From positions 248,001-312,000 of the forward strand of contig NZ_LMAH01000001.1 of NCBI RefSeq assembly GCF_001507335.1: 64,000 bases of DNA, read 5' to 3'. The DNA comes from Chryseobacterium sp. JAH. Its GTDB lineage: Bacteria > Bacteroidota > Bacteroidia > Flavobacteriales > Weeksellaceae. Under the pieces are notes generated by a model, which saw only the letters and a list, made by a program, of their open reading frames with translations, was not told where the DNA came from and did no database searches. Each line of letters begins with the position of its first letter. Position 1 is the stretch's first letter. Positions 44,959-64,000 of this stretch are shown here, in pieces. Both the position numbers and the translations under genes were made by a program.

Positions 44959-45306
44959 ATGAGACGACAAAAAATTAAACAGTGCAATTGCCCGCTCGGA
45001 AAGGCCATGTCAGCTTTAGGCAGCAAGTGGAAACCCATTATCGTACTAGTGATTAAAGACCGTACTTTGAGATTTGGCGAAATTGCAGAACATATTTCTC
45101 TGATTTCAAGAAAGGTCCTTACAGATCAACTAAGAGAAATGGAAGAGGATAAATTGGTAATCAGACGAGAATTCAAAGAATTACCACCAAGAGTAGAGTA
45201 TAACCTTACTGAAAAAGGATCTGCATTATTGCCTATTTTAAATTTGCTCGAAGAATGGGAAAAAGAATTTGATTTTACAGAAGAAAAATTAGATGCGATT
45301 AGGTAA
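44959..45306 (+). CDS. HxlR-family winged-helix regulator
   Basis: 115 residues with the family signature: NCPLGKAMSALGSKWKPIIV, then LRFGEIAEHISLISRKVLT and the wing YNLTEKGSALLPIL. N-terminal CNC cysteines could sense thiol-reactive compounds, as in several HxlR/YodB proteins; that is inference. It is followed 31 bases later by an acetyltransferase-like gene on the same strand, a likely target. Confidence 0.9.
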   Translation: MRRQKIKQCNCPLGKAMSALGSKWKPIIVLVIKDRTLRFGEIAEHISLISRKVLTDQLREMEEDKLVIRREFKELPPRVEYNLTEKGSALLPILNLLEEWEKEFDFTEEKLDAIR

Positions 45307-45337
45307 TGAAAAAAGTAAAAAGACTGATTAATATAAA

Positions 45338-45964
45338 ATGAAAGTAATAGATATTGAAACATGGAAAAGGAAAGAACATTTTAAATTTTTCTCTAAAATG
45401 AAAAGTCCGTTTTTTGGATTTACAAGCGAGGTAGATTGTACAAAGGCTTATGACGATGCAAAACGAAAAGGTAATTCATTTTATGCAGTCTATCTTCACA
45501 AATCAATGATTGCGATAAATACAGTAGAAGAATTGAAACTGAGGATTGTCGACGGAAATGTAGTTTTGTATGATGAAGTACATGTTGGAGGTACTATTGG
45601 AAGAGCAGACGGAACTTTCGGGTTTTCATTTTTTCATTATTCTGAAAACTTCGATATTTTTAATCAGGAACTGCAAAAAGAAGTAAAATCTGTTCAAAAC
45701 TCTACAGGTCTAGGAATCAGCAATGATGTTTTGCCTATTAATCACATAAGACATACAACTATTCCGTGGAAATCTTTTTCTGCTATGCTTCATCCTACTA
45801 ATTTTGACCCTAAAGAGTGCATTCCGAAAATTACGTTTGGAAAATTCAATATCCGTGATGATAAAAAATATCTTCCCGTCTCTATAGAGGCGCATCATGG
45901 TTTGGCAGATGGGCTACATTTAGCAAAATACTTTGAAGAGTTTGAGAGACAACTAAGTTTATAA
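45338..45964 (+). CDS. Chloramphenicol acetyltransferase-like protein
   Basis: 208 residues of the trimeric CAT fold. The catalytic motif HHGLADG (histidine base) is intact near residue 188, and the N-terminus MKVIDIETWKRKEHFKFF with the segment TIPWKSFSAMLHP matches CAT-type proteins. Many chromosomal relatives do not confer resistance, so drug activity is not assured. Paired with an HxlR regulator, which suggests inducible expression. Ends at a strong bidirectional terminator. Confidence 0.8.
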   Translation: MKVIDIETWKRKEHFKFFSKMKSPFFGFTSEVDCTKAYDDAKRKGNSFYAVYLHKSMIAINTVEELKLRIVDGNVVLYDEVHVGGTIGRADGTFGFSFFHYSENFDIFNQELQKEVKSVQNSTGLGISNDVLPINHIRHTTIPWKSFSAMLHPTNFDPKECIPKITFGKFNIRDDKKYLPVSIEAHHGLADGLHLAKYFEEFERQLSL

Positions 45965-52463: not shown

Positions 52464-52725
52464 CTGCTATTTAATTTTAAAAAATTAAAAATAATAAAAT
52501 AAATCACAATGTTTTGATAAAACACAGTTAATGTTTTACTAAATTATCATTGTTTTAAATAAGTGAATTGCAGTTGTACTTTACATCGTCAATCTTGTCA
52601 TCTTGGGCATATAACAAGTTGAGGCGAAAACTATGATTATTAAATTTAATTGTATTGCAAAAGTAAATAATCATCAAAAATAATAATTTTAATCACAACC
52701 ATTTGAAATTGATTGAAGAGGTCAC

Positions 52726-52790
52726 CTTTGATTTAGCTACAACAATCTTTGATTTAGCCACAATTGTCTTTTAGATTCTGACCAACTTTG
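52726..52790 (+). promoter_or_regulatory. Cassette 1 control region: 21-bp direct repeats and -7 box
   Basis: CTTTGATTTAGCTACAA (52726-52742) and CTTTGATTTAGCCACAA (52747-52763) are direct repeats exactly 21 bp apart. Core AGCCACA begins at 52756, 34 bases before the G of a degenerate -7 box CAACTTTG (52783-52790). The rest of the 52464-52825 gap is AT-rich with no other signal seen. Confidence 0.65.
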
Positions 52791-52825
52791 TACTGTAAAA
52801 ATTAATCAATTAAAAACAATCAAAA

Positions 52826-53665
52826 ATGGACACACAAAAAGTATGGTTCGTGACAGGAGCTTCAAAAGGATTAGGATTAACTTTGGTCAAAAGATTATTG
52901 GCAGAAGGTCATTCTGTAGCAGCGACTTCCAGAAATATTACTGAACTACAGAAAGCAGTGAGTGAAGAAAATGTATCATTTCTTCCGCTTGAAGTTGATT
53001 TGATTAACGAAAACTCTGTTGAATCAGCAGTTTCAAAATCGATAGAGAAATTCGGGAAGCTGGATGTTGTAGTGAATAATGCCGGTTACGGACAGTTGGG
53101 AACTCTGGAAGAAATTTCGGATTTGGAAAGCCGTCAGAATTTTGACACCAACGTCTTCGGTTCTCTGAATATCGTCAGAAAGACAATGCCTTATTTGAGA
53201 GAACAGAAAAGTGGATTCATTATCAACATCGCATCAATTGGCGGATTAACAGGAGAATTTGCAGGTTGGGGAATCTATTGTGCCACTAAGTTTGCAGTGG
53301 TAGGATTTACAGAAGCTTTGGCCGCTGAAGTTAAAGAATTCGGAGTGAATGCAACTGTGGTTTATCCTGGGTATTTCAGAACTGATTTCTTAACAGGTGG
53401 CTCACTCAGAACGCCAAAAACGGAAATTGAAGAATACACCGTAGCAAGACAACTTCAGACCGCACACGAAAAAGACATCAACGGAAATCAGCCGGGAGAC
53501 CCTGAAAAAGCAGCTGTGGCGTTGATGGAATTGGTAGCACTGGAAAATCCGCCTGTACATTTGGTTTTAGGTTCTGATGCATTCGGAATTGCCGGAAATA
53601 AATTAAATGCGCTTCAAAGTGAAATTTCTGAGTTTAAAACGCTAAGTACATCTACAGATTATTAA
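52826..53665 (+). CDS. Classical SDR-family oxidoreductase (cassette 1)
   Basis: 279 residues. TGASKGLGLTL binds NAD(P), NNAG is present, catalytic Ser in NIASIGGLTG and Tyr/Lys in YCATKFA. The C-terminal extension (after about residue 190) is longer than in minimal SDRs and includes GGSLRTPKTEIEEY. Substrate unknown. It is followed by a hairpin and then an AraC regulator gene, the first of four SDR-AraC cassettes, and is controlled by the 21-bp repeat element upstream. Confidence 0.9.
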   Translation: MDTQKVWFVTGASKGLGLTLVKRLLAEGHSVAATSRNITELQKAVSEENVSFLPLEVDLINENSVESAVSKSIEKFGKLDVVVNNAGYGQLGTLEEISDLESRQNFDTNVFGSLNIVRKTMPYLREQKSGFIINIASIGGLTGEFAGWGIYCATKFAVVGFTEALAAEVKEFGVNATVVYPGYFRTDFLTGGSLRTPKTEIEEYTVARQLQTAHEKDINGNQPGDPEKAAVALMELVALENPPVHLVLGSDAFGIAGNKLNALQSEISEFKTLSTSTDY

Positions 53666-53671
53666 ATTTGT

Positions 53672-53708
53672 AAAGGCAACAGTTTCTTGCTGTTGCCTTT
53701 TAATTTTT
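53672..53708 (+). terminator. Hairpin between the SDR and AraC genes of cassette 1
   Basis: Perfect 11-bp stem AAAGGCAACAG / CTGTTGCCTTT (53672-53682 and 53690-53700) followed by TAATTTTT. It probably terminates part of the SDR transcripts and lowers AraC expression. Confidence 0.75.
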
Positions 53709-53713
53709 AAGTT

Positions 53714-54628
53714 ATGCATAACAGAAAATTATACACCATCGATACCATTTCTGAATTTCACAGAATTTCAGGATTGCCCAAACCTCAGCATCCGCTCATC
53801 AGTCTGGTAGATTACAGTTTGGTGGAATATCAAATCGAAGAATCCGAAATTAGCTGGGTTCAGGATTTGTATTTTATGGGTTTTAAAAGAGATATTCAGG
53901 GGAAACTTCATTACGGTCAGGGTCAGTATGATTTTGATGAAGGTCTGATGTGTTTTATTGCGCCAAGACAGTTAGTCAAAATGGTTATCAGCAAATATGA
54001 AACAAAACCTTCGGGATATCTTTTGGCTTTTCATCCTGACTTTATCTGGAATACACCTTTAGCAAAAACCATAAATAATTATAAATTTTTCGGATATGAT
54101 GTGAACGAGGCTTTATTTCTTTCTGAAAAAGAAGAAGAGACGTTAATCGGACTTTTCAAAGGAATCGAAAAAGAATACCAATCGGGAATTGACCAGTTTA
54201 CTCAGAATATCATTATTTCGCAGATTGAAGTCATTTTAAATTATTGCGAAAGATTTTATCAAAGACAATTCATTACCCGAAAAAAGACCAATCATCAGAT
54301 TTTAGATAAATTAGAAATCATCCTTAAAGATTATTTTAACGAAAATGTGATGGATAAAGGTTTGCCGACCGCCAATTATGTCGCTGAACAATTGAACATC
54401 TCAGCTAATTATTTGGGGAGTTTATTAAAGCAATTAACAGGACAAACCACACAACAACACATCCACGAAAAACTGATTGAAAGAGCCAAAGAAAAACTGT
54501 CAACAACAGAACTTTCAATAAGTGAAATTGCCTATGAACTAGGGTTTGAACATTCGCAATCTTTCAGTAAACTGTTTAAAGCTAAAACGGATATTTCGCC
54601 TTTGGAATTCAGAAAGTCATTTAATTAA
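53714..54628 (+). CDS. AraC-family transcriptional regulator (cassette 1)
   Basis: 304 residues. An N-terminal ligand-sensing region of about 190 residues (FHRISGLPKPQHPLISLVD, YGQGQYDFDEGLMCF) and a C-terminal double HTH (about 200-304) with LNISANYLGSLLKQLTGQTT and SISEIAYELGFEHSQSFSKL. The last ~50 residues are almost identical to the cassette 2 and 3 regulators. Likely controls the SDR gene upstream through the 21-bp repeats; ligand unknown. Confidence 0.9.
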   Translation: MHNRKLYTIDTISEFHRISGLPKPQHPLISLVDYSLVEYQIEESEISWVQDLYFMGFKRDIQGKLHYGQGQYDFDEGLMCFIAPRQLVKMVISKYETKPSGYLLAFHPDFIWNTPLAKTINNYKFFGYDVNEALFLSEKEEETLIGLFKGIEKEYQSGIDQFTQNIIISQIEVILNYCERFYQRQFITRKKTNHQILDKLEIILKDYFNENVMDKGLPTANYVAEQLNISANYLGSLLKQLTGQTTQQHIHEKLIERAKEKLSTTELSISEIAYELGFEHSQSFSKLFKAKTDISPLEFRKSFN

Positions 54629-54646
54629 GACGTACAATTTATTTTC

Positions 54647-54710
54647 ACCAACATTGCTACAGCAAAGACCAATTTGGTTATTTTTTTCACTTTGGCAATA
54701 CAGAACTTTG
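54647..54710 (+). promoter_or_regulatory. Cassette 2 control region: 21-bp direct repeats and -7 box
   Basis: ACCAACATTGCTA (54647-54659) and ACCAATTTGGTTA (54668-54680) are imperfect direct repeats exactly 21 bp apart. The proximal core GGTTATT begins at 54676, 34 bases before the G of GAACTTTG (54703-54710). Same geometry as cassettes 1, 3 and 4, with weaker sequence match. Confidence 0.5.
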
Positions 54711-54733
54711 CATAATAATTTAAACAAAACATT

Positions 54734-55471
54734 ATGCAAAATCTTAAAGGAAAAGTAGTAGCTGTTACCGGAGCAAGTGCAGGAATCGGCAAAGCCATTG
54801 CGATAAAATTGCCAGAAAACGGGGTGAAAGTTGTTTTGGGAGCGCGGAACATTGAGCAATTGCAAAGCATAGTTGATTACATTAAAAACAACAACGGCGA
54901 TGCAATCTCTGTAAAAATAGATGTGAGCAAAAAAGAAGATTTGATTCACTTTGTAAACGCTGCTGTTGAAAAATACGGAACATTAGACGTCATCATCAAT
55001 AATGCAGGAGTGGCGCAGCTTAGCCGGATTGATGAACTGGATGTTGACGGCTGGGAGCAAATGATTAATATCAACATCAAAGGGGTTTTGTATGGAATGG
55101 CAGCCGCAATTCCTGTTTTCAAACAACAGCAGTCGGGTCATATTGTGAATATCATTTCTACCTCAGGAATCAAAATTGTTCCGACACAGGGGATTTATGC
55201 AGGTACAAAAAATGCTGTTCGTACTATTTCGGAAGCCTTTCGTCAGGAATCGGATGGGAAGATCAGAATTACGGGAATTTCGCCCGGCGTCGTGAAAACT
55301 GACTTTGCAAATCATATAAAAAATGAATCAATGAAAACTGTCATTCAGCAGAATATGGAACAATTAGCCATAAGCCCGGAAGCTGTTGCCGATGCTGTCA
55401 TCTATGCCATCAGTCAGCCAAAAGAAGTTGAAATCGGTGACATCGTCATTCGTCCGGCAAAACAAAATTAA
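54734..55471 (+). CDS. Classical SDR-family oxidoreductase (cassette 2)
   Basis: 245 residues. TGASAGIGKAI, NNAG, Ser in NIISTSGIKI and Tyr/Lys in YAGTKNA. C-terminus KEVEIGDIVIRPAKQN. It is close in pattern to the cassette 4 SDR (both with [12 protein letters not shown]-type and [12 protein letters not shown]-type segments), so the two probably share ancestry. Substrate unknown. AraC gene starts 20 bases after its stop. Confidence 0.92.
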   Translation: MQNLKGKVVAVTGASAGIGKAIAIKLPENGVKVVLGARNIEQLQSIVDYIKNNNGDAISVKIDVSKKEDLIHFVNAAVEKYGTLDVIINNAGVAQLSRIDELDVDGWEQMININIKGVLYGMAAAIPVFKQQQSGHIVNIISTSGIKIVPTQGIYAGTKNAVRTISEAFRQESDGKIRITGISPGVVKTDFANHIKNESMKTVIQQNMEQLAISPEAVADAVIYAISQPKEVEIGDIVIRPAKQN

Positions 55472-55491
55472 TTATTATTAATCCTAATAAA

Positions 55492-56406
55492 ATGCAGCAA
55501 AAAACAGATATCCATCACATCGCAAGCATCTCACAACTGATGCGTGAACTCGGATTGCCGGCGCCTTTGCATCCGCTGATTGCTTTGGTCAATTACAATG
55601 ATGTTTCTGCCGAAATGCTGGAAAAGGGACAAAAGTTAAGTATTGATTTTTATAAAATTTCTTTTAAACCCGATTTTAAAGGACAAACGAAGTACGGACA
55701 AGGTTATTATGATTTTGAAGAAGGTGGATTGGCTTTCCTGAAACCCAAACAAATTGTCTATACGCCGGAAGATAAAGAGAGTTATGTGGGCTTTGCACTA
55801 TATTTTCATCCGGATTTCATTCTGAATTATCCTTTAGGAAAACAGATAGACCAGTTCGGCTTTTTCTCGTACAATGTTTCCGAAGCATTGTTTTTATCGG
55901 CAAAGGAGAAAGACATTATCACCAGTTTATTTAACTCAATTGCTGCGGAGTTAACGAATAGTATTGATCATTTCAGCCAGAACGTTTTGGTCACACAAAT
56001 TGAATTATTGTTAAATTACAGCAACAGGTTTTACAATCGGCAGTTCATTACAAGAAAAGCTTTGAACAACAATATCGTCAATCGGTTAGACCAATTACTG
56101 AAAAATTATTTCAATGATCGCAGCGGACTCAAGAATGGTCTGCCATCCGTGCAAAACATCTGTGCGGAGTTGCAATTGTCCCAACGTTATTTAAGTGATT
56201 TAATGAAATCATTGACGGGACTCAATACACAGCAATATATTCAAAATGCTATGATTGAAAAAGCCAAAGAAAAACTTTCAACAACCGAACTTTCCGTGAG
56301 TGAAATTGCATACGAACTGGGCTTTGAGCATTCTCAGTCTTTCAGTAAGTTATTTAAAGCTAAAACGGATATTTCGCCTTTAGAGTTTCGGAAATCTTTT
56401 AATTAA
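55492..56406 (+). CDS. AraC-family transcriptional regulator (cassette 2)
   Basis: 304 residues. N-terminal sensing region (MRELGLPAPLHPLIALVNYN, KYGQGYYDFEEGG), variable relative to the sister proteins, and C-terminal double HTH ending SVSEIAYELGFEHSQSFSKL and SPLEFRKSFN. The DNA-binding tail is identical or nearly so to those in cassettes 1 and 3 while the codons differ. It starts 20 bases after the SDR gene with no terminator between, so it is co-transcribed. Confidence 0.9.
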   Translation: MQQKTDIHHIASISQLMRELGLPAPLHPLIALVNYNDVSAEMLEKGQKLSIDFYKISFKPDFKGQTKYGQGYYDFEEGGLAFLKPKQIVYTPEDKESYVGFALYFHPDFILNYPLGKQIDQFGFFSYNVSEALFLSAKEKDIITSLFNSIAAELTNSIDHFSQNVLVTQIELLLNYSNRFYNRQFITRKALNNNIVNRLDQLLKNYFNDRSGLKNGLPSVQNICAELQLSQRYLSDLMKSLTGLNTQQYIQNAMIEKAKEKLSTTELSVSEIAYELGFEHSQSFSKLFKAKTDISPLEFRKSFN

Positions 56407-56410
56407 ATTT

Positions 56411-56470
56411 TTTCGGCTACAGGAAAATACTTTTCGGCTACAAGAGTACAACAGCGAAACCTCAACTTTG
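56411..56470 (+). promoter_or_regulatory. Cassette 3 control region: 21-bp direct repeats and -7 box
   Basis: TTTCGGCTACAGG (core at 56415) and TTTCGGCTACAAG (core at 56436) are direct repeats 21 bp apart with one difference over 13 bases. The proximal GGCTACA begins 34 bases before the G of CAACTTTG (56463-56470). Strongest match of the four. Confidence 0.7.
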
Positions 56471-56490
56471 CTTCATTAAAATATATCAAA

Positions 56491-57387
56491 ATGAAAGTAT
56501 TTGTTACAGGCGCTACAGGTTTTGTGGGAACAGCCGTAGTACAGGAATTATTAGCCAATGGTCATCAGGTTTTAGGATTGGCTCGTTCGGAAGAATCAGC
56601 AAACAAACTGATTTCAGCCGGCGCAAAAGCACACCGAGGAGATTTAAATGATTTTGAAAGTCTGAAATCAGGAGCTGAAGGTTCAGACGCAGTGATTCAC
56701 TTAGGTTTCGTCCACGATTTTACAAGATTCGAGGAAATGTGCAAACTTGATGGCAAAGTCATTGAAACAATTGGTGAAGCTTTGGCAGGAACCGACAAAC
56801 CATTTCTCATCACTTCAGGAACGGCACTTTTCTCAAAAGACGGACTTACCGTAGAAACAGACTGCTCAGTAAATCCTCATCCCAGAATTGCTACAGAAAA
56901 TGCAGCCGATGCTGTTGCAGCTAAAGGTGTAAAAGTTGCGGTGATTAGATTGTCGCCATCCGTTCACGGGAAAGGTGATATCATTGGTTTTATCCCCACA
57001 TTGATTAGGATTGCAAGAGAAAAAGGCAAATCTGCTGTAATTAATGATGGCAACAATTTCTGGCCCGCAGTTCATAAATTAGATGCTGCAAAATTATACC
57101 GATTAGCTTTGGAAAATCCTTTTGAAAGCGGAAAAAGGTATCACGCAGTTGCTGAACAGGGCATTCCGTTTAAAGATATTGCAACGTTTATCGCTCAAAG
57201 ATTGCAGGTTCCGGTTGTTTCTCTATCCAATGATGAAGCGAGAGAACATTTTGGGTGGTTTGCGCATTTTGCAAAGCTTAATAATCTGACTTCAAATGAA
57301 GAAACCAAAACAGTTTTAAGTTGGGAACCACAACATCCAACTTTATTGGAAGATCTTGAAAACATTTATTTAGCTGAGCAACAATAA
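56491..57387 (+). CDS. Extended (atypical) SDR-family oxidoreductase (cassette 3)
   Basis: 298 residues. NAD(P)-binding FVTGATGFVGTAVV (GxxGxxG) and VIHLGFVHDF, the layout of extended, epimerase-like SDRs. No clear YxxxK was found: the usual tyrosine site reads RIATENAADAV, so chemistry may differ. Later motifs are RLSPSVHGKGD and FWPAVHKLDAAKLYRLA. It thus belongs to another SDR branch than cassettes 1, 2 and 4, although it sits in the same regulatory slot. Confidence 0.87.
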   Translation: MKVFVTGATGFVGTAVVQELLANGHQVLGLARSEESANKLISAGAKAHRGDLNDFESLKSGAEGSDAVIHLGFVHDFTRFEEMCKLDGKVIETIGEALAGTDKPFLITSGTALFSKDGLTVETDCSVNPHPRIATENAADAVAAKGVKVAVIRLSPSVHGKGDIIGFIPTLIRIAREKGKSAVINDGNNFWPAVHKLDAAKLYRLALENPFESGKRYHAVAEQGIPFKDIATFIAQRLQVPVVSLSNDEAREHFGWFAHFAKLNNLTSNEETKTVLSWEPQHPTLLEDLENIYLAEQQ

Positions 57388-57429
57388 TCTAAGACAAACA
57401 TTCATTAAATTTGATTAAATATTAAACCT

Positions 57430-58344
57430 ATGTCTGACGCGCCAATAAGAATAAAGACCATATCCCAATTCCATACTTTACGTGGTTTGCCGAAGCCAAA
57501 ACATCCGCTCATCAGTGTAATTAATTTTGAAGATATGGCACCCGCTTTGGAAAGCGGAAAGCAGAGTTTGATATTTGATTTTTATATGATTTCTGTCAAA
57601 CGGGATATGAATCATAAATACAGATACGGTCAGCAAGATTATGATTTCGATGAAGGTGTAATGTTTTGTATGGCACCGCATCAGATTCTAAGCGTTATCA
57701 GAGAAGAGCACGACAAAAATCCATCCGGATGGATGATGATGATTCACCCTGATTTTCTCTGGAATACGCCATTGGCAACTGCCATCAAAAAGTATGAATT
57801 CTTCGATTATTCGGTCAATGAAGCTTTATTTTTATCCGAAGATGAGGAAATTAAAATCCAGCAAATCACCGAAAACATTAAGCAGGAATACCAGACGAGT
57901 ATTGATAAATTCAGTCAGAATATTATTATCTCTCAGCTGGAAACACTTTTGAATTATTCAGAAAGATTCTATCAAAGACAATTTTTAACAAGGCAAAAAG
58001 CACATCATCAATTCTTAGAAAAATTATCAATGCTGCTTAATAATTATTTTGAGAGAGATGATTCTAAAGAAAAAGGATTGCCGAGTGTTCAGTTTCTTTC
58101 AGACGAATTGAATATGTCACCGCAGTATATGAGAAGTCTTTTAAAAACTTTAACGGGACAAACCACACAACAGATTATACATGAAAAACTGATTGAAAAA
58201 GCCAAAGAAAAACTCTCCACAACCGAACTCTCTGTAAGTGAAATTGCTTATGAATTGGGGTTTGAACATTCTCAGTCTTTCAGTAAGCTGTTTAAAGCCA
58301 AAACGGATATTTCGCCTTTGGATTTTCGGAAGTCGTTTAATTAA
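57430..58344 (+). CDS. AraC-family transcriptional regulator (cassette 3)
   Basis: 304 residues. N-terminal part (FHTLRGLPKPKHPLISVINF, RYGQQDYDFDEGVMFCMA) and C-terminal double HTH with LNMSPQYMRSLLKTLTG and SVSEIAYELGFEHSQSFSKL, ending SPLDFRKSFN. Very close to the cassette 1 regulator in the N-terminal half as well (IHPDFLWNTPLA vs FHPDFIWNTPLA). Its last bases overlap the convergent serine hydrolase gene by eight. Confidence 0.9.
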   Translation: MSDAPIRIKTISQFHTLRGLPKPKHPLISVINFEDMAPALESGKQSLIFDFYMISVKRDMNHKYRYGQQDYDFDEGVMFCMAPHQILSVIREEHDKNPSGWMMMIHPDFLWNTPLATAIKKYEFFDYSVNEALFLSEDEEIKIQQITENIKQEYQTSIDKFSQNIIISQLETLLNYSERFYQRQFLTRQKAHHQFLEKLSMLLNNYFERDDSKEKGLPSVQFLSDELNMSPQYMRSLLKTLTGQTTQQIIHEKLIEKAKEKLSTTELSVSEIAYELGFEHSQSFSKLFKAKTDISPLDFRKSFN

Positions 58345-59377
58345 AAGGCTTTACCAGTTCACTCTTAAGAATAATATCTTTAATCAGTGTTTCAAAATAA
58401 TAAAAATTTTCACTGTTTTCATTCATTTGATTTTCCAGAATAATCAGACTGATATCAGATTCCGGAATATAAATATTTAATGAAGCAAAACCATCGCCCA
58501 ATCCTGTATGACCTAAATATTTTACACCATGATTTTCTGCAATTCTGATATTGTAACCGTAACCCATTTTATCTTTTCCAAAAACGCTATGTTGAGATTG
58601 TACAGATTCTGTAGTCATCTTTCTGTACATTTTCTCGCTTAAAATTTTACCTTTATGAAGATTGTTATTCCATATTGAAAGATCTTTTGCTGTGGTTATT
58701 ATTCCGTCGGCAGGTAAATTTTCTTCATTTATGAAAGAACTGTCAATAACTTTATAATCTTTTTGACTGATCATATGTCCACTTACCAGATTTCTTTGGT
58801 CGCCTTTTGAAAAGCAAAACGTGTTTTTCATTTTAAGATTATCAAATAATTCATTTGCAACATCTCTGTAAGCTTTACCTGAACTTTTTTCGATAATTTT
58901 CCCTAAAAGAATATTTGATAAATTCCCATATTTGAAATCGGTTCCCGCTTTGAATAGCAATGGTTTCTCAATGTCTGAGATTCCGTGGGTATGGTTTAAA
59001 AGCTGATGAACGGTAACAGAATCTGCCCAAGATTGCTTAAGATATGATAAATATTTTTTGATGGGTTTATCTAAATCGACTTTTCCTTTTTCAACCTCTT
59101 TTAAAAGCAAAACAGAAGTAATTTGCTTTGAATTTGACATGATTTCAAATTGATCATTTATTTCCAAAGGAATTTTCGCTTTAAGATTTCTCGATCCGGA
59201 AGCCTTTGAATATTTTGTTTTTCCATTTTTAGTAATCAAAATAACCCCGTTGAACGTACTGTGATTTTTAGTTTGAATTAAACTGTCGATTTTTGCAGAC
59301 CAGCTTTTCTGATGTTGAGCAAACGTATGTATACAAAGAAATAAAAGGAAAGAAATAACAGTTTTACTTGTGATCAT
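58337..59377 (-). CDS. Exported serine hydrolase (class C beta-lactamase / PBP-like)
   Basis: 346 residues with a signal peptide (about 1-21, VISFLLFLCIHTFAQ). Serine beta-lactamase-fold motifs: the nucleophile SxxK in MSNSKQITS, YxN in FKYGNLSN and HTG in LGHTGLGDG. This set fits the beta-lactamase-related esterase/D-aminopeptidase group rather than a resistance enzyme. Convergent with the cassette 3 AraC gene. Confidence 0.87.
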   Translation of the reverse strand: MITSKTVISFLLFLCIHTFAQHQKSWSAKIDSLIQTKNHSTFNGVILITKNGKTKYSKASGSRNLKAKIPLEINDQFEIMSNSKQITSVLLLKEVEKGKVDLDKPIKKYLSYLKQSWADSVTVHQLLNHTHGISDIEKPLLFKAGTDFKYGNLSNILLGKIIEKSSGKAYRDVANELFDNLKMKNTFCFSKGDQRNLVSGHMISQKDYKVIDSSFINEENLPADGIITTAKDLSIWNNNLHKGKILSEKMYRKMTTESVQSQHSVFGKDKMGYGYNIRIAENHGVKYLGHTGLGDGFASLNIYIPESDISLIILENQMNENSENFYYFETLIKDIILKSELVKPFN

Positions 59378-59406
59378 TTGTAGTTGAATTTCGAAATAAT
59401 TTGATC

Positions 59407-59414
59407 CAAATATA
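59407..59414 (-). promoter_or_regulatory. -7 promoter box of the serine hydrolase gene
   Basis: Minus-strand TATATTTG fits TANNTTTG; leader about 26 bases. No box was found for the divergent MFS gene in 59378-59540. Confidence 0.5.
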
Positions 59415-59540
59415 AGATTTTAATCAACATATAGAGACTCATAGATTTTATCTTTTTCGATGATCAGCTCAGAAAAATAAGTACACAATGCCTACCTTTA
59501 CTAAGTTTTTCACTAAAGATATTTTCAAATAGAAACTTTA

Positions 59541-60725
59541 ATGCTCGATTCATCTTCTTCACGTATTTCAAAAACCGTGGTTTGGCTTATGGCCGTTATT
59601 TCCGGACTTGTTGTTGCCAATAATTATTATAATCAGCCTTTGCTTGGATTAATTTCTAAAGATTTTGATATTTCTGAAACCGCAGCGGGAAAAATTTCTG
59701 TTCTTACCCAGTTAGGTTATGCTTTCGGATTATTGCTCATCGTCCCTTTGGGAGATAAATTTTATCGTAAAAAACTAATCCTAATTGACTTGCTTTTGGT
59801 TTTTGCAGCATTATTGTGGATGACTTTTGCCACAGATGTCTGGATGTTGTATGTAGCAAGTTTGTTGATAGGAATTACATCCGTAATCCCACAATTGTTT
59901 GTTCCCATTGCCGCTGAATTGTCCTCAGAAGAAGAAAAATCGGAAAATATTGGATTGGTTGTCTCAGGTTTGCTACTAGGGATTTTGCTCTCCAGATTCG
60001 TCGGCGGAATTGTCGGTGAACTTTGGGGATGGCGCACAATGTACGCAATCGCAGCAGGATTGATGCTTGTAATTTGGATATTTGTTTACAAAATGCTTCC
60101 TGTTTTACAGCCTAATTTTAAAGGAACGTATATCGAACTGATGAGATCTGTAGCCCAATTAGCAAAAACTCAACCTGTTTTACAGCTGGCTTCATTCCGA
60201 GGTGCGATGGCTTTTGGGTCGATGTGTGCGCTATTCACAACCCTGGTTTTTCATATGGAGAGACCTCCGTTTGAGGTAGGTGCTTCTGTGGTGGGAAGTT
60301 TCGGTCTGGCTGGAGCGGTTGGCGCATTAGCTGCCGCCAGGGTAGGAAAGTTGCAAAATAAGATTTCTTTAAACAGAATTATCCGGTATGCTCTGTTGAT
60401 TTTAATCGGAAGTTGGGGATTTACCTATTTTGCAGGAAATACATATTGGGGACTAATTGTTGGCGTTATCCTGATTGATTTAGGCGTACAGTCGAGTCAT
60501 ATTATGAATCAGACTAATTATTTCTTATTGAAAACCACTGCAGTTAACCGTTTGAATACCGTTTATATGGTTTCTTATTTCATCGGTGGCTCATTAGGTA
60601 CTTGGCTGGCTTCTTTAGCTTGGCAATATGCTCAGTGGGAAGGAGTTTGTATGGTTGGTGTTGTAATGGGACTGCTGGCTTTGTCAGCACATATTCTCTT
60701 CTGTAAAAAAATAATTTCAAATTAA
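59541..60725 (+). CDS. MFS transporter
   Basis: 394 residues with about 12 transmembrane segments in two six-helix halves, an MFS-type loop after helix 2 (PLGDKFYRKKLI), and YNQPLLGLISKDF near the N-terminus as in sugar- or drug-efflux MFS proteins of the YnfM/AraJ-like group. Substrate not determinable. It is followed by a FrnE-like DsbA gene after 25 bases, probably as one transcript. Confidence 0.9.
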   Translation: MLDSSSSRISKTVVWLMAVISGLVVANNYYNQPLLGLISKDFDISETAAGKISVLTQLGYAFGLLLIVPLGDKFYRKKLILIDLLLVFAALLWMTFATDVWMLYVASLLIGITSVIPQLFVPIAAELSSEEEKSENIGLVVSGLLLGILLSRFVGGIVGELWGWRTMYAIAAGLMLVIWIFVYKMLPVLQPNFKGTYIELMRSVAQLAKTQPVLQLASFRGAMAFGSMCALFTTLVFHMERPPFEVGASVVGSFGLAGAVGALAAARVGKLQNKISLNRIIRYALLILIGSWGFTYFAGNTYWGLIVGVILIDLGVQSSHIMNQTNYFLLKTTAVNRLNTVYMVSYFIGGSLGTWLASLAWQYAQWEGVCMVGVVMGLLALSAHILFCKKIISN

Positions 60726-60750
60726 TATATTTAACCTTAAAATAAAATTC

Positions 60751-61449
60751 ATGAAAATAGAAATCTGGTCAGACGTCATGTGTCCTTTTTGTTATATCGG
60801 AAAGAAAAACTTTGAGCAGGCATTAGAAAAACTGCCATTTAAAGAAGAAATAGAAGTAGAGTGGAAGAGTTTTCAGCTGGATCCTACTTTAGAACTTGCA
60901 GAAACAAAGACTACAGCAGAATATTTCAGAGAAAAGAAAGGTTTTCCTGAGGAGCAGGCAAAGCAAATGACGGCTCAGGTTGTACAAATGGGTAAAGCTT
61001 CGGGTATTGATTTTAATTTTGAAAAAGCATTAATTACCAACACCTTTCCTGCGCATAAAATTCTGCATTTAGCTAAAAAGAACGGTAAATCTTCAGAGAT
61101 GGAAGAAGAATTGTTCAAAGCTCATTTTTTGAAAGGTGAAAATGTAGGAAGTGTTGAAGTTTTATCAAAATTAGCGGAAAAACTTGGCATCAGTAAAAAC
61201 GAAGCAATGCAAACGCTTAGTTCAGACGAATTTAATAATGAAGTGAATCAAGATATCACAGAAGGTCGTAATAACGGTATTACCGGAGTTCCTTTCTTTA
61301 TTTTAAATGGAAAATATGCGGTCTCAGGAGCGCAGCCGACGGAACTTTTTGAGGAAGCTTTAACGCAAACGTATAACGAAACGGTGAAGCCATTTAAAGG
61401 TGCTTCGAGTAATGATTTGTCTTGCGATGCAGACGGTTGCAGTATTTAA
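60751..61449 (+). CDS. FrnE-like DsbA-family oxidoreductase
   Basis: 232 residues, no signal peptide, so cytoplasmic. Thioredoxin fold with an inserted helical domain: active site VMCPFCYIGKKN (CPFC), and cis-Pro region ITGVPFFILNGKYAVSGAQ, the FrnE signature. Relatives contribute to disulfide handling and oxidative stress tolerance. It ends with a cysteine-containing tail DLSCDADGCSI. Probably co-transcribed with the MFS gene upstream and the nucleosidase downstream. Confidence 0.92.
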   Translation: MKIEIWSDVMCPFCYIGKKNFEQALEKLPFKEEIEVEWKSFQLDPTLELAETKTTAEYFREKKGFPEEQAKQMTAQVVQMGKASGIDFNFEKALITNTFPAHKILHLAKKNGKSSEMEEELFKAHFLKGENVGSVEVLSKLAEKLGISKNEAMQTLSSDEFNNEVNQDITEGRNNGITGVPFFILNGKYAVSGAQPTELFEEALTQTYNETVKPFKGASSNDLSCDADGCSI

Positions 61450-61472
61450 TCTACGCTATTTTCATATTTAAA

Positions 61473-62054
61473 ATGATAAAAATAAACAATCAAACTACGT
61501 TTGCGGTTGAAGACACCCTTTTCGTCTTTGCTTTAGATTCTGAAGCCGGAAAAGCTTTTGATCACACGCAGAAACTCATCACCGGAATCGGAAAAGTAAG
61601 TGCAGCCATTGAACTGACTAAAGAAATCATTAGAAAAAAACCTAAGTTAATCGTGAATCTGGGCTCGGCAGGTGGAGTAGGTTTTCATAAAGGTGAGATC
61701 ATCTGCTGCACACAATTTATCCAGCGTGATATGGATGCGCAGGGTTTAGGATTTAAAAAGTTTGAAACACCGTTATCCAATATCCCGATCGTTCTGGAAA
61801 ACGGTTTAAAAATGGACGGGGTGGAAGAAGGAACTTGCGGCAGCGGCGACAGTTTTGAGATGAATCACATCAACACCGAATATAACGTCATCGACATGGA
61901 AGCGTATCCGTTGGCTCTCATTGCCATGCAGGAAAATATTCCTTTTTTATGTTTAAAATACATTTCCGATGATGCGGGGAGCGATGCCGCAGATGATTGG
62001 TCGGTACAGGTTCTTTTGGCTTCAGAAGCGTTTAAAAAGCTTTTGTTCAAGTAA
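61473..62054 (+). CDS. MTA/SAH-nucleosidase-like phosphorylase-fold protein
   Basis: 193 residues from the ATG at 61473 (MIKINNQTTFAVED); a longer frame from 61422 overlaps the previous gene and is less likely. Purine nucleoside phosphorylase fold: FALDSEAGKAF, LVNLGSAGGVGFHKGE and VIDMEAYPLALIA, where the ME..A motif with its Glu binds ribose. Shorter than typical MTAN (about 230). Specificity uncertain. A hairpin terminator follows. Confidence 0.8.
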   Translation: MIKINNQTTFAVEDTLFVFALDSEAGKAFDHTQKLITGIGKVSAAIELTKEIIRKKPKLIVNLGSAGGVGFHKGEIICCTQFIQRDMDAQGLGFKKFETPLSNIPIVLENGLKMDGVEEGTCGSGDSFEMNHINTEYNVIDMEAYPLALIAMQENIPFLCLKYISDDAGSDAADDWSVQVLLASEAFKKLLFK

Positions 62055-62071
62055 GCCTTAAAAAATAAAAG

Positions 62072-62100
62072 TAAGCCATCTTTTGTAGATGGCTTATTGT
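62072..62100 (+). terminator. Terminator after the nucleosidase gene
   Basis: Perfect 9-bp stem TAAGCCATC / GATGGCTTA (62072-62080 and 62088-62096). T run short. Confidence 0.65.
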
Positions 62101-62189
62101 TTCAGAATTCTAGTTCCAGTCACTGAATTTTGTTTAGCATTTGCAAAATTCAAAGCTTGGTATCCAATTAAATTAGTTCAGCTCTGATA

Positions 62190-63107
62190 TCAGTTAAAAG
62201 AATTCCTAAATTCCAATGGCGTCACTTCAGTTTTATTTTTAAATAGTTTATTGAAAGACTGCGGATATTCAAAACCTAACTGATAAGCAATCTGACTAAC
62301 AGATAAATTGGTGGTCGATAAAATCTCTTTCGCTTTATCAATCAGCTTCTGATGAATGTGCTGTTGAGCATTTAAACCCGTCAATTCACGTAAAATATCA
62401 CTTAGATAATTCGGAGTAACATTCAACTGATTGGCTAAAAACTGAACCGTAGGAAGACCATTCTGTAACCCATTATCGCTGTTAAAATGATGATCCAGTA
62501 AAACATCCATCTGACTAAGCAAATCATTGTTCTTCACTTTTTGAAACAGAAACTGACGGTTGTAGAAACGGTTGCTGTAATTTAATAGTAATTCAATCTG
62601 GCTGATCATCACATCCTGACTGAAATGGTCGAGACGCTGACTGAGTTCATCTTCAATATTTCCGAACAGGCTGAAAATGGTCTGCTGTTCAGATTCAGTC
62701 AATTGCAAAGCTTCATTGGCTCCGTAAGAAAAGAAACCATAATTTTTGATATTTTTTGCCAGCGCATAGCCCCTGAGAAAATCGGGATGAATCAGGAGCG
62801 TCTGTCCTTCACAGTTTCCGTTGCTTTCGTCCTCTGCAATCAATTGATGCGGCGCCATAAAAGAAAGTCCGCCATTCTGAAAATCATAATGATGCTGTCC
62901 GTATCTGATTTTTCCACTGAGTGCTTTTTTGTACGAAATCTTGTAAAAATCCATTACCATTCCTTTGGCAATATCCGAGACATCACCGGAAATATCCTTG
63001 TAATCATTCAGAGAAATCAGCGGATGTTTAGGCTCAGGCATTCCCAGCGCTTTGTTCATCTCAGTGATGGTATGAAAGACGTACGGAATATGCGTGTTTT
63101 TTTTCAT
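62190..63107 (-). CDS. AraC-family transcriptional regulator (cassette 4)
   Basis: 305 residues of the same family: N-terminal part TEMNKALGMPEPKHPLISLND and RYGQHHYDFQNGGLSF, C-terminal double HTH with LNVTPNYLSDILRELTG and SVSQIAYQLGFEYPQSFNKL. The DNA-binding tail differs at several positions from cassettes 1-3 (SVSQ/YQLGFEYPQ), matching the different core in its operator. Own -7 box just upstream, besides possible readthrough from the SDR gene 43 bases earlier. Confidence 0.9.
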   Translation of the reverse strand: MKKNTHIPYVFHTITEMNKALGMPEPKHPLISLNDYKDISGDVSDIAKGMVMDFYKISYKKALSGKIRYGQHHYDFQNGGLSFMAPHQLIAEDESNGNCEGQTLLIHPDFLRGYALAKNIKNYGFFSYGANEALQLTESEQQTIFSLFGNIEDELSQRLDHFSQDVMISQIELLLNYSNRFYNRQFLFQKVKNNDLLSQMDVLLDHHFNSDNGLQNGLPTVQFLANQLNVTPNYLSDILRELTGLNAQQHIHQKLIDKAKEILSTTNLSVSQIAYQLGFEYPQSFNKLFKNKTEVTPLEFRNSFN

Positions 63108-63119
63108 AAGATTTCAATA

Positions 63120-63127
63120 CAAATATA
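63120..63127 (-). promoter_or_regulatory. -7 promoter box of the cassette 4 AraC gene
   Basis: Minus-strand TATATTTG fits TANNTTTG, with start about nine bases before the ATG. This gives the regulator its own consensus promoter, unlike the SDR gene. Confidence 0.5.
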
Positions 63128-63150
63128 GCAATAACTTTATTCTAAACCGA

Positions 63151-63891
63151 CTACATTGGCTGAGCAGTCGGGCGGATAATCATTTCGCTGATGTCTACGT
63201 CTTCAGGTTGACTGATCACATATGAAACTGCTCTGGCAATACTTTCTGCAGAAATCGCCATGCCCGCCAGCTGACCGATGAATGGTTTTACTTTTTCGTC
63301 GGTAATCGTATGTGTCAGTTCAGATTCTGTCACGCCCGGCGAAATAATGCTGGTTCTGATGTTGTAAGGTTTCACTTCCTGTCTCAGACCTTCACTGATG
63401 GCTCTTACGGCAAATTTTGTCCCGGAATAAACCGCACTTGAAGGTGCCACTATATGACCTGCGACTGAAGATACATTGATAAAGTGACCACTTTTCTGTT
63501 GTATAAAGTGAGGCAAAACCGCGCCGATTCCATACAGAACACCTTTGATATTCACATCAATCATCTGTTCCCATTCTTCATAAAGTAGACTTTCAAGCAT
63601 TGAAACCGGCATCACTCCCGCATTGTTGAATAAGACATCGATTTTTCCGAAATTTTTCAAAGTATGGTTCACCAATGCTTCTACATCTGCACGTTTGCTG
63701 ACATCAGTGGCGAAAGCCAGAGCTTTCCCTCCTTCGGCCGTGATTTCTGCAACCAAATCATCCAGTTTTTCTTTTCTTCTTGCGGCAAGGCTCAAAACTG
63801 CTCCTTCTTTTGCTAATAATTTTGCTGTTGCGAAACCTATTCCGCTGCTCGCTCCGGTGATGATGATCACCTTTCCTGAAATATTACTCAT
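63151..63891 (-). CDS. Classical SDR-family oxidoreductase (cassette 4)
   Basis: 246 residues from the ATG at 63891 ([19 protein letters not shown]); a start 26 codons upstream is rejected because it would lie before the promoter. NNAG, Ser in [10 protein letters not shown] and Tyr/Lys in YSGTKFA. C-terminus [14 protein letters not shown] resembles the cassette 2 SDR (VEIGDIVIRPAKQ), so these two are paralogues. Substrate unknown. Followed by the AraC gene on the same strand. Confidence 0.92.
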
Positions 63892-63911
63892 TATATTATT
63901 TTTTTGTAGAG

Positions 63912-63967
63912 CAAAGATGAGGTACACGTTGTCAATTGAAGTATCCATAGCAAGGAAAAGAGTATCC
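63912..63967 (-). promoter_or_regulatory. Cassette 4 control region: 21-bp direct repeats and -7 box
   Basis: On the minus strand GGATACT occurs at 63967 and 63946 (first G positions), 21 bp apart. The proximal core is 34 bases before the G of CATCTTTG (63912-63919). Geometry identical to cassettes 1-3, but the core is GGATAC rather than GGCTAC. Confidence 0.65.
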
Positions 63968-64000
63968 AAAATGAAATGGGTTGCTGAATTATAAAAAGGA

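Follow-up and report, generated by a model that had tools for sequence, protein, structure and literature searches.

Putative AraC/XylS-type class II operators at a fixed distance from the -7 box precede oxidoreductase-AraC operons of Bacteroidota

Escherichia coli AraC binds araI1-I2 as a dimer on direct half-sites, with the proximal half-site at the -35 region, and the sites for XylS and RNA polymerase reportedly overlap, as the title of a 2002 study by Gonzalez-Perez has it. At Pm of the Pseudomonas putida TOL plasmid, the XylS operator reads TGCA-N6-GGNTA-N6-TGCA-N6-GGNTA with a 21-bp period (PMC4514859; PMC5481539), and 21-bp direct repeats are known for MekR as for XylS (PMC4514859). CphR has TGCA-N6-GGNTA repeats at -35 to -49 and -55 to -69 of cphA2A1 in Rhodococcus (PMC6205950), and for an AraC-family rhamnose regulator of Bacteroides, comparative genomics gives 21-bp direct repeats (PMC3870299). 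Here we analyze a 64,000-nt stretch of Chryseobacterium sp. JAH (contig NZ_LMAH01000001.1, positions 248,001 to 312,000; hereafter the window), in which four genes for short-chain dehydrogenases/reductases (SDRs) are each followed by a gene for an AraC-type regulator. From their sequences, we assign the direct repeats upstream of these SDR genes to the AraC/XylS-type class II operators (GGNTA box, 21-bp period), placed on a Bacteroidota-type promoter. The operator type is already known from XylS, MekR and the Bacteroides rhamnose regulator. Each element very probably serves as operator and promoter for one self-contained operon of oxidoreductase and AraC genes, in which a dimer of the cognate regulator would activate the enzyme gene.

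All four core pairs (Table 1) lie where the original prediction had placed them, and at 4 of 4 sites the repeat gap is exactly 21 bp and the G of the TTTG in the -7 box falls exactly 34 bases after the proximal core and 55 after the distal one. When periods of 15-29 were compared, self-similarity was best at period 21 at every site (20, 11, 18 and 11 of 25), narrowly so at site 4, where the runner-up period reached 10/25 against 11/25. Among the 1155 TTTG positions of the window examined at the same geometry, only sites 3 and 4 had cores identical at 7/7 bases. In this window-alone scan, site 1 had 6/7 core identity plus strong flanks, while site 2, with 3/7, was unremarkable by itself and is convincing only because of the operators of AraC2 orthologues described below. 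The four-site geometry is not due to chance. The predicted cores stand as coordinates, but each is only the B-box half of its half-site; a regulator-specific A-box lies about 4-8 bp before each core. In operator 1, the A-box TTTGA stands ahead of both cores, and in operator 2, ACCAA occurs in the distal and proximal half-sites.

The original prediction called for a search of other Chryseobacterium and flavobacterial genomes for repeats at this period before SDR-AraC pairs. A search across Bacteroidota revealed that the exact geometry is kept phylum-wide. Relatives of the AraC regulators were collected within the genus and the phylum and from named genomes, giving 171 at 90% non-redundancy. A motif-free measure of self-similarity, applied to 119 regions before the linked enzyme, was at least 12/16 in 36 regions at period 21 and in 0-4 at the other periods from 14 to 33. 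Searching the 171 relatives for GGMTACA cores (6/7 match) yielded 78 pairs with a gap of 21 and no more than 4 with any other gap; the peak at 21 was absent from reversed sequence, and TTTG stood at exactly +34 in 74 of the 78 pairs. A site model detected an operator above threshold in 126/171 forward and 2/171 reversed sequences. The control for this model was reversed sequence rather than shuffles, and the model was trained on sites that it later counted, while the period and core-pair counts are independent of it. Among the 45 model-negative relatives, 13 had a site farther upstream and 15 more had one in longer stretches (loci matched by hand), raising the total to about 154/171. The operator, whose two direct half-sites have the spacing of about 21 bp seen in class II operators, lay ahead of the enzyme gene rather than araC in 124/126 cases, with a median of 23 bases from the G of TTTG to the start codon. 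Site-bearing genera include Ohtaekwangia, Mucilaginibacter, Pedobacter, Chitinophaga, Niabella, Larkinella, Dyadobacter, Belliella, Zobellia, Aquimarina and Sphingobacterium. The enzymes behind the operator (SDRs, NmrA-like proteins, aldo/keto reductases and zinc alcohol dehydrogenases) are mostly NAD(P)-type oxidoreductases.

Start sites mapped in Flavobacterium psychrophilum place the TAnnTTTG box at -12 to -5 (PMC9723704). By this map, the G of TTTG is at about -5 and not at -4, as had been supposed, which puts the proximal cores at about -39 to -33 and the distal cores at about -60 to -54. The proximal half-site is fixed relative to TTTG, and its putative overlap with the -35/-33 region follows from the start predicted by the F. 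psychrophilum map. The observation that these boxes lack their first T holds beyond the window, as G or C replaces it in 118/126 operator promoters (G 66, C 52, T 8, A 0). At NANNTTTG matches in 734 upstream regions taken from elsewhere in the same loci, this base was T 189, A 68, C 62 and G 61 times (T versus not T, p 9e-21 by Fisher's test; A versus C/G, p 2e-17). Rather than the full TAnnTTTG consensus, the operator promoters thus have a modified box that retains TTTG and the A with G or C as the first base, and just 7/126 have TTG near -33. Since plain loss of T in AT-rich genomes would often leave A, the G/C at -12 appears to be selected. From the core positions, the rarity of the -33 TTG and the G/C at -12, we infer that these promoters need an activator.

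An unlikely alternative is that the cognate AraC binds the repeats mainly as a repressor or dual regulator, as AraC itself is generally known to repress without arabinose. Both half-sites, however, are found ahead of the -7 box in class II activator positions like that of CphR (-35 to -49; PMC6205950), and with G/C in place of the -12 T and the -33 TTG rare, the promoter looks weak on its own. Activation by the cognate regulator is our preferred reading.

The comparison with araI2 made in the original prediction is fair, but XylS and CphR are closer, as they share the GGNTA box and a period of 20-21 bp. As with XylS, the repeats are direct, an A-box precedes the B-box in each half-site, and GGNTA fits the GG(C/A)TA found here. 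Unlike Pm, the operators described here belong to another phylum and sigma factor and stand on a Bacteroidota-type -7 box with G/C at -12; the A-box is not TGCA, is slightly nearer the B-box and varies among paralogues; and the regulator gene shares an operon with the enzyme gene and lies downstream of it. The proximal GGNTA of CphR, at -39 to -35, is in the register proposed here, although CphR has a period of 20 bp as stated, an actinobacterial promoter and a target operon that does not end with the regulator gene. The half-sites of E. coli AraC, TAGC-N7-TCCATA and TAGC-N7-ACCTGA (PMC4514859), differ from the present operators. The Bacteroides rhamnose regulator differs in regulator group, motif and pathway. 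Among the open-access papers that we searched, we found no prior description of this subfamily's operator, code, G/C -12 promoter or spread.

The original prediction also expected the repeats to covary with the AraC recognition helices, and they do, strongly for the first helix-turn-helix motif (HTH1) and the A-box and more weakly for HTH2 and the core. The top raw couplings joined residue 232, which opens the HTH1 recognition helix, to proximal half-site bases -5 and -7: N, S, G or D at 232 goes with G at base -5, Q or K with T or C, and R or H with A. For a phylogeny-aware test, we compared dependent and independent models on a tree of the sensor part alone. Residue 232 and A-box base -5 gave a likelihood ratio (LR) of 34.6, with 20.4 for the runner-up among 66 equally split columns; residue 239 and base -6 gave 30.9, and spacer controls gave 5.1 and 9.7. 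For HTH2, the coupling is between residues 286 and 281 and core positions +2 and +5. By alignment with AraC, residues 232 and 236 correspond to AraC Ser208 and His212 and to MarA Trp42 and Arg46, which we take to be base contacts; a literature search for the base contacts of MarA and AraC returned no papers. Each operator has a GGNTA-type B-box with a preceding A-box, for which HTH2 and HTH1, respectively, are the predicted readers.

Several points weigh against this assignment. Most of the relative loci are nearest to AraC1 or AraC3, and in about 17/171 relatives, several of them distant (36-45% identity) or short of flanking DNA, a site was undetected. The binary residue classes were chosen post hoc, for which the 66-column comparison compensates, as the same data-driven split was applied everywhere. 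The HTH2-core coupling is weaker (LR 14.5) and has a post hoc split. By raw mutual information, some non-contact columns also score, and residue 70 tops the pooled analysis. Lastly, a weak, underpowered test on 63 closest-relative pairs gave p 0.004 for residue 232 with base 14 and p 0.36 with base 16; because it was underpowered, we replaced it with the tree-based test.

Operons of AraC2 orthologues bear on which protein reads the operator. In 14/14 of them, an ACCAA box is present in the window's register, matching the proximal ACCAA of operator 2. We had at first considered site 2 probably spurious, since AraC2 orthologues seemed to be siteless; this was overturned when longer flanks placed the operator before the aldo/keto reductase gene that heads the operon. 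Elsewhere, the operon runs aldo/keto reductase, SDR2, AraC2, while the window locus is without the reductase and has the operator directly before SDR2. Since ACCAA persists although the first gene differs, the operator goes with the regulator rather than with the enzyme.

Linkage was examined with a strict pattern in the window's genome and 19 relatives, which gave 14 matches and 0 in the backward control; a family AraC lay in the operon behind 12 of the 13 strict matches outside the window's genome. A dispersed regulon in the window's genome was considered and rejected: in a strict pattern search there, only sites 3 and 4 matched without mismatch, and matches with two mismatches were not beside family AraC genes. 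In one relative (G011:C3:34920-41475), a near-perfect operator-promoter precedes an SDR gene and a family AraC was not found within about 6 kb, making it a possible orphan site.

Together, these data support a model in which each operator is apparently read by the AraC-type regulator of its own operon. A single regulator per genome could instead read all the repeats, the linked AraC being incidental; the B-box core common to all cassettes and the near-identical HTH2 of AraC1-3 would fit this view. We regard it as very improbable, as the A-boxes differ among cassettes and coevolve with HTH1 of the linked AraC, ACCAA stays with AraC2 despite the change of first gene, strict matches are nearly always AraC-linked, and the window's own genome has no orphan strict site. 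That the geometry is a functionless remnant of the duplication of one cassette is barely credible: the cassettes are paralogous and three are in tandem, but the spacing is exact though the flanks have diverged and is kept before unrelated enzymes and in many Bacteroidota genera. HTH1-A-box coevolution, AraC linkage, the spread among genera and ACCAA in AraC2 orthologues led us to reject both the remnant and the global-regulator readings.

Mean column entropy is 0.67 bits in HTH2 and 1.37 bits in HTH1, so HTH2 is by far the more conserved motif. The last ~46 residues of AraC1-3, which comprise HTH2 (54488-54625, 56266-56403 and 58204-58341), are 96-98% identical, compared to 44-52% elsewhere. 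For AraC2 and AraC3, identity is 98% over the final 45 residues and ~44% elsewhere, while AraC2 and its own orthologues share 64-76% of the body and only 70-93% (mostly 85-87%) of the final block, where AraC2 is thus nearer to its tandem neighbours than to its orthologues. Among pairs of comparable overall divergence, the 99th percentile is 89% identity in the HTH2 block. These values point to gene conversion of the HTH2 segment within the tandem array, with strong shared constraint as a less likely alternative. Since synonymous sites of AraC2 and AraC3 are only slightly more alike in this block, the putative conversion is old rather than recent. Thus, the three tandem neighbours probably have a common B-box reader and private A-box readers. 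AraC4 has PQSFNKLFKNKT in HTH2, versus SQSFSKLFKAKT in AraC1-3, and its core (GGATACT) differs too.

All four regulators match Pfam HTH_18 above the cut-off, having the C-terminal two-HTH region of the AraC/XylS family, and PDB profile matches include AraC and SoxS; AraC2, AraC3 and AraC4 are 48-58% identical to AraC1. AraC_binding was matched below the cut-off, in AraC2 only. In the AraC3 model, the N-domain resembles the sensor domains of AraC (2arc) and RhaR (5u93), with TM (target) of ~0.62-0.66, and the C-domain has the fold of the MarA/SoxS/AraC DNA-binding domain; as modelled, both domains would thus be structurally similar to those of E. coli AraC. A fifth family AraC of the window's genome (C8:74128-80364) follows an aldo/keto reductase gene, and this locus has repeats that share the geometry of the four operators (GCATACGACAATCGTGATTTTGAATACA...CACTTTTG). 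For SDR4, the longest frame opens at TTG 63969 (segment 63892-63969, minus strand), within the operator, and automatic annotation could mis-start the gene. Apart from these cassettes, an HxlR-like regulator gene followed by a chloramphenicol acetyltransferase-like gene (HHGLADG motif) was noted by eye only at 44959-45964.

Table 1. Predicted operators, -7 boxes and genes of the four cassettes (window coordinates)
Feature	Coordinates	Strand	Description
Operator 1	52724..52765	+	two 21-bp half-sites; B-box cores AGCTACA 52735-52741, AGCCACA 52756-52762
-7 box, promoter 1	52783..52790	+	CAACTTTG; first base C instead of T
SDR1	52826..53665	+	classical short-chain dehydrogenase, PF00106
AraC1 regulator	53714..54628	+	HTH_18; predicted reader of operator 1
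Operator 2	54644..54685	+	cores TGCTACA 54655-54661, GGTTATT 54676-54682
-7 box, promoter 2	54703..54710	+	GAACTTTG
SDR2	54734..55471	+	classical SDR, PF00106
AraC2 regulator	55492..56406	+	
Operator 3	56404..56445	+	cores GGCTACA 56415-56421 and 56436-56442
-7 box, promoter 3	56463..56470	+	CAACTTTG
SDR3	56491..57387	+	extended SDR / NAD-dependent epimerase type, PF01370
AraC3 regulator	57430..58344	+	AlphaFold model pLDDT 87.7
AraC4 regulator	62190..63107	-	
SDR4	63151..63891	-	classical SDR; likely start ATG 63891
-7 box, promoter 4	63912..63919	-	CATCTTTG
Operator 4	63937..63978	-	cores GGATACT 63967-63961 and 63946-63940

A mechanism can be proposed for these operons. The AraC-type product of the last gene in the operon would bind as a dimer to the two direct half-sites, 21 bp or two helical turns apart, with HTH2 on the shared B-box (GGMTACA) and HTH1 on the private A-box ~4-8 bp ahead of it. 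The proximal half-site would stand in for the -33 element, and contact between the bound protein and RNA polymerase would rescue a promoter with G or C, not T, at -12. Binding or activation is presumably switched by a small ligand, which the cupin-like N-domain would sense and which, via the shared operon, would induce enzyme and regulator jointly. Activation over repression, dimer binding, polymerase contact and the ligand are what we infer. E. coli YqhC is an AraC-type activator of the aldehyde/aldo-keto reductases of yqhD-dkgA (PMC8262776), and the enzyme logic here may be similar. By this analogy, our guess is that the substrates are carbonyl or quinone-like compounds.

More broadly, and tentatively, these promoters could form a phylum-wide Bacteroidota class of activator-dependent (G/C)AnnTTTG promoters without a -33 element, joined to a modular AraC code. 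HTH2 and the B-box would be common and kept so by gene conversion in tandem arrays, HTH1 and the A-box would be a private key that insulates paralogues, and selection would have made G/C at -12 a lock that keeps the promoter silent in the regulator's absence.

We found no characterised member of this AraC subfamily, which is large in Bacteroidota, with up to 15 close members in one genome. A readable operator means that its regulator-target pairs may be assigned from sequence and that the recognition code is open to a residue-swap test. As a testable mark in the sequence, the G/C at -12 would point to activator-dependent promoters in Bacteroidota, whose sigma factor is unusual, and it may offer a route to tight inducible promoters for these hosts.

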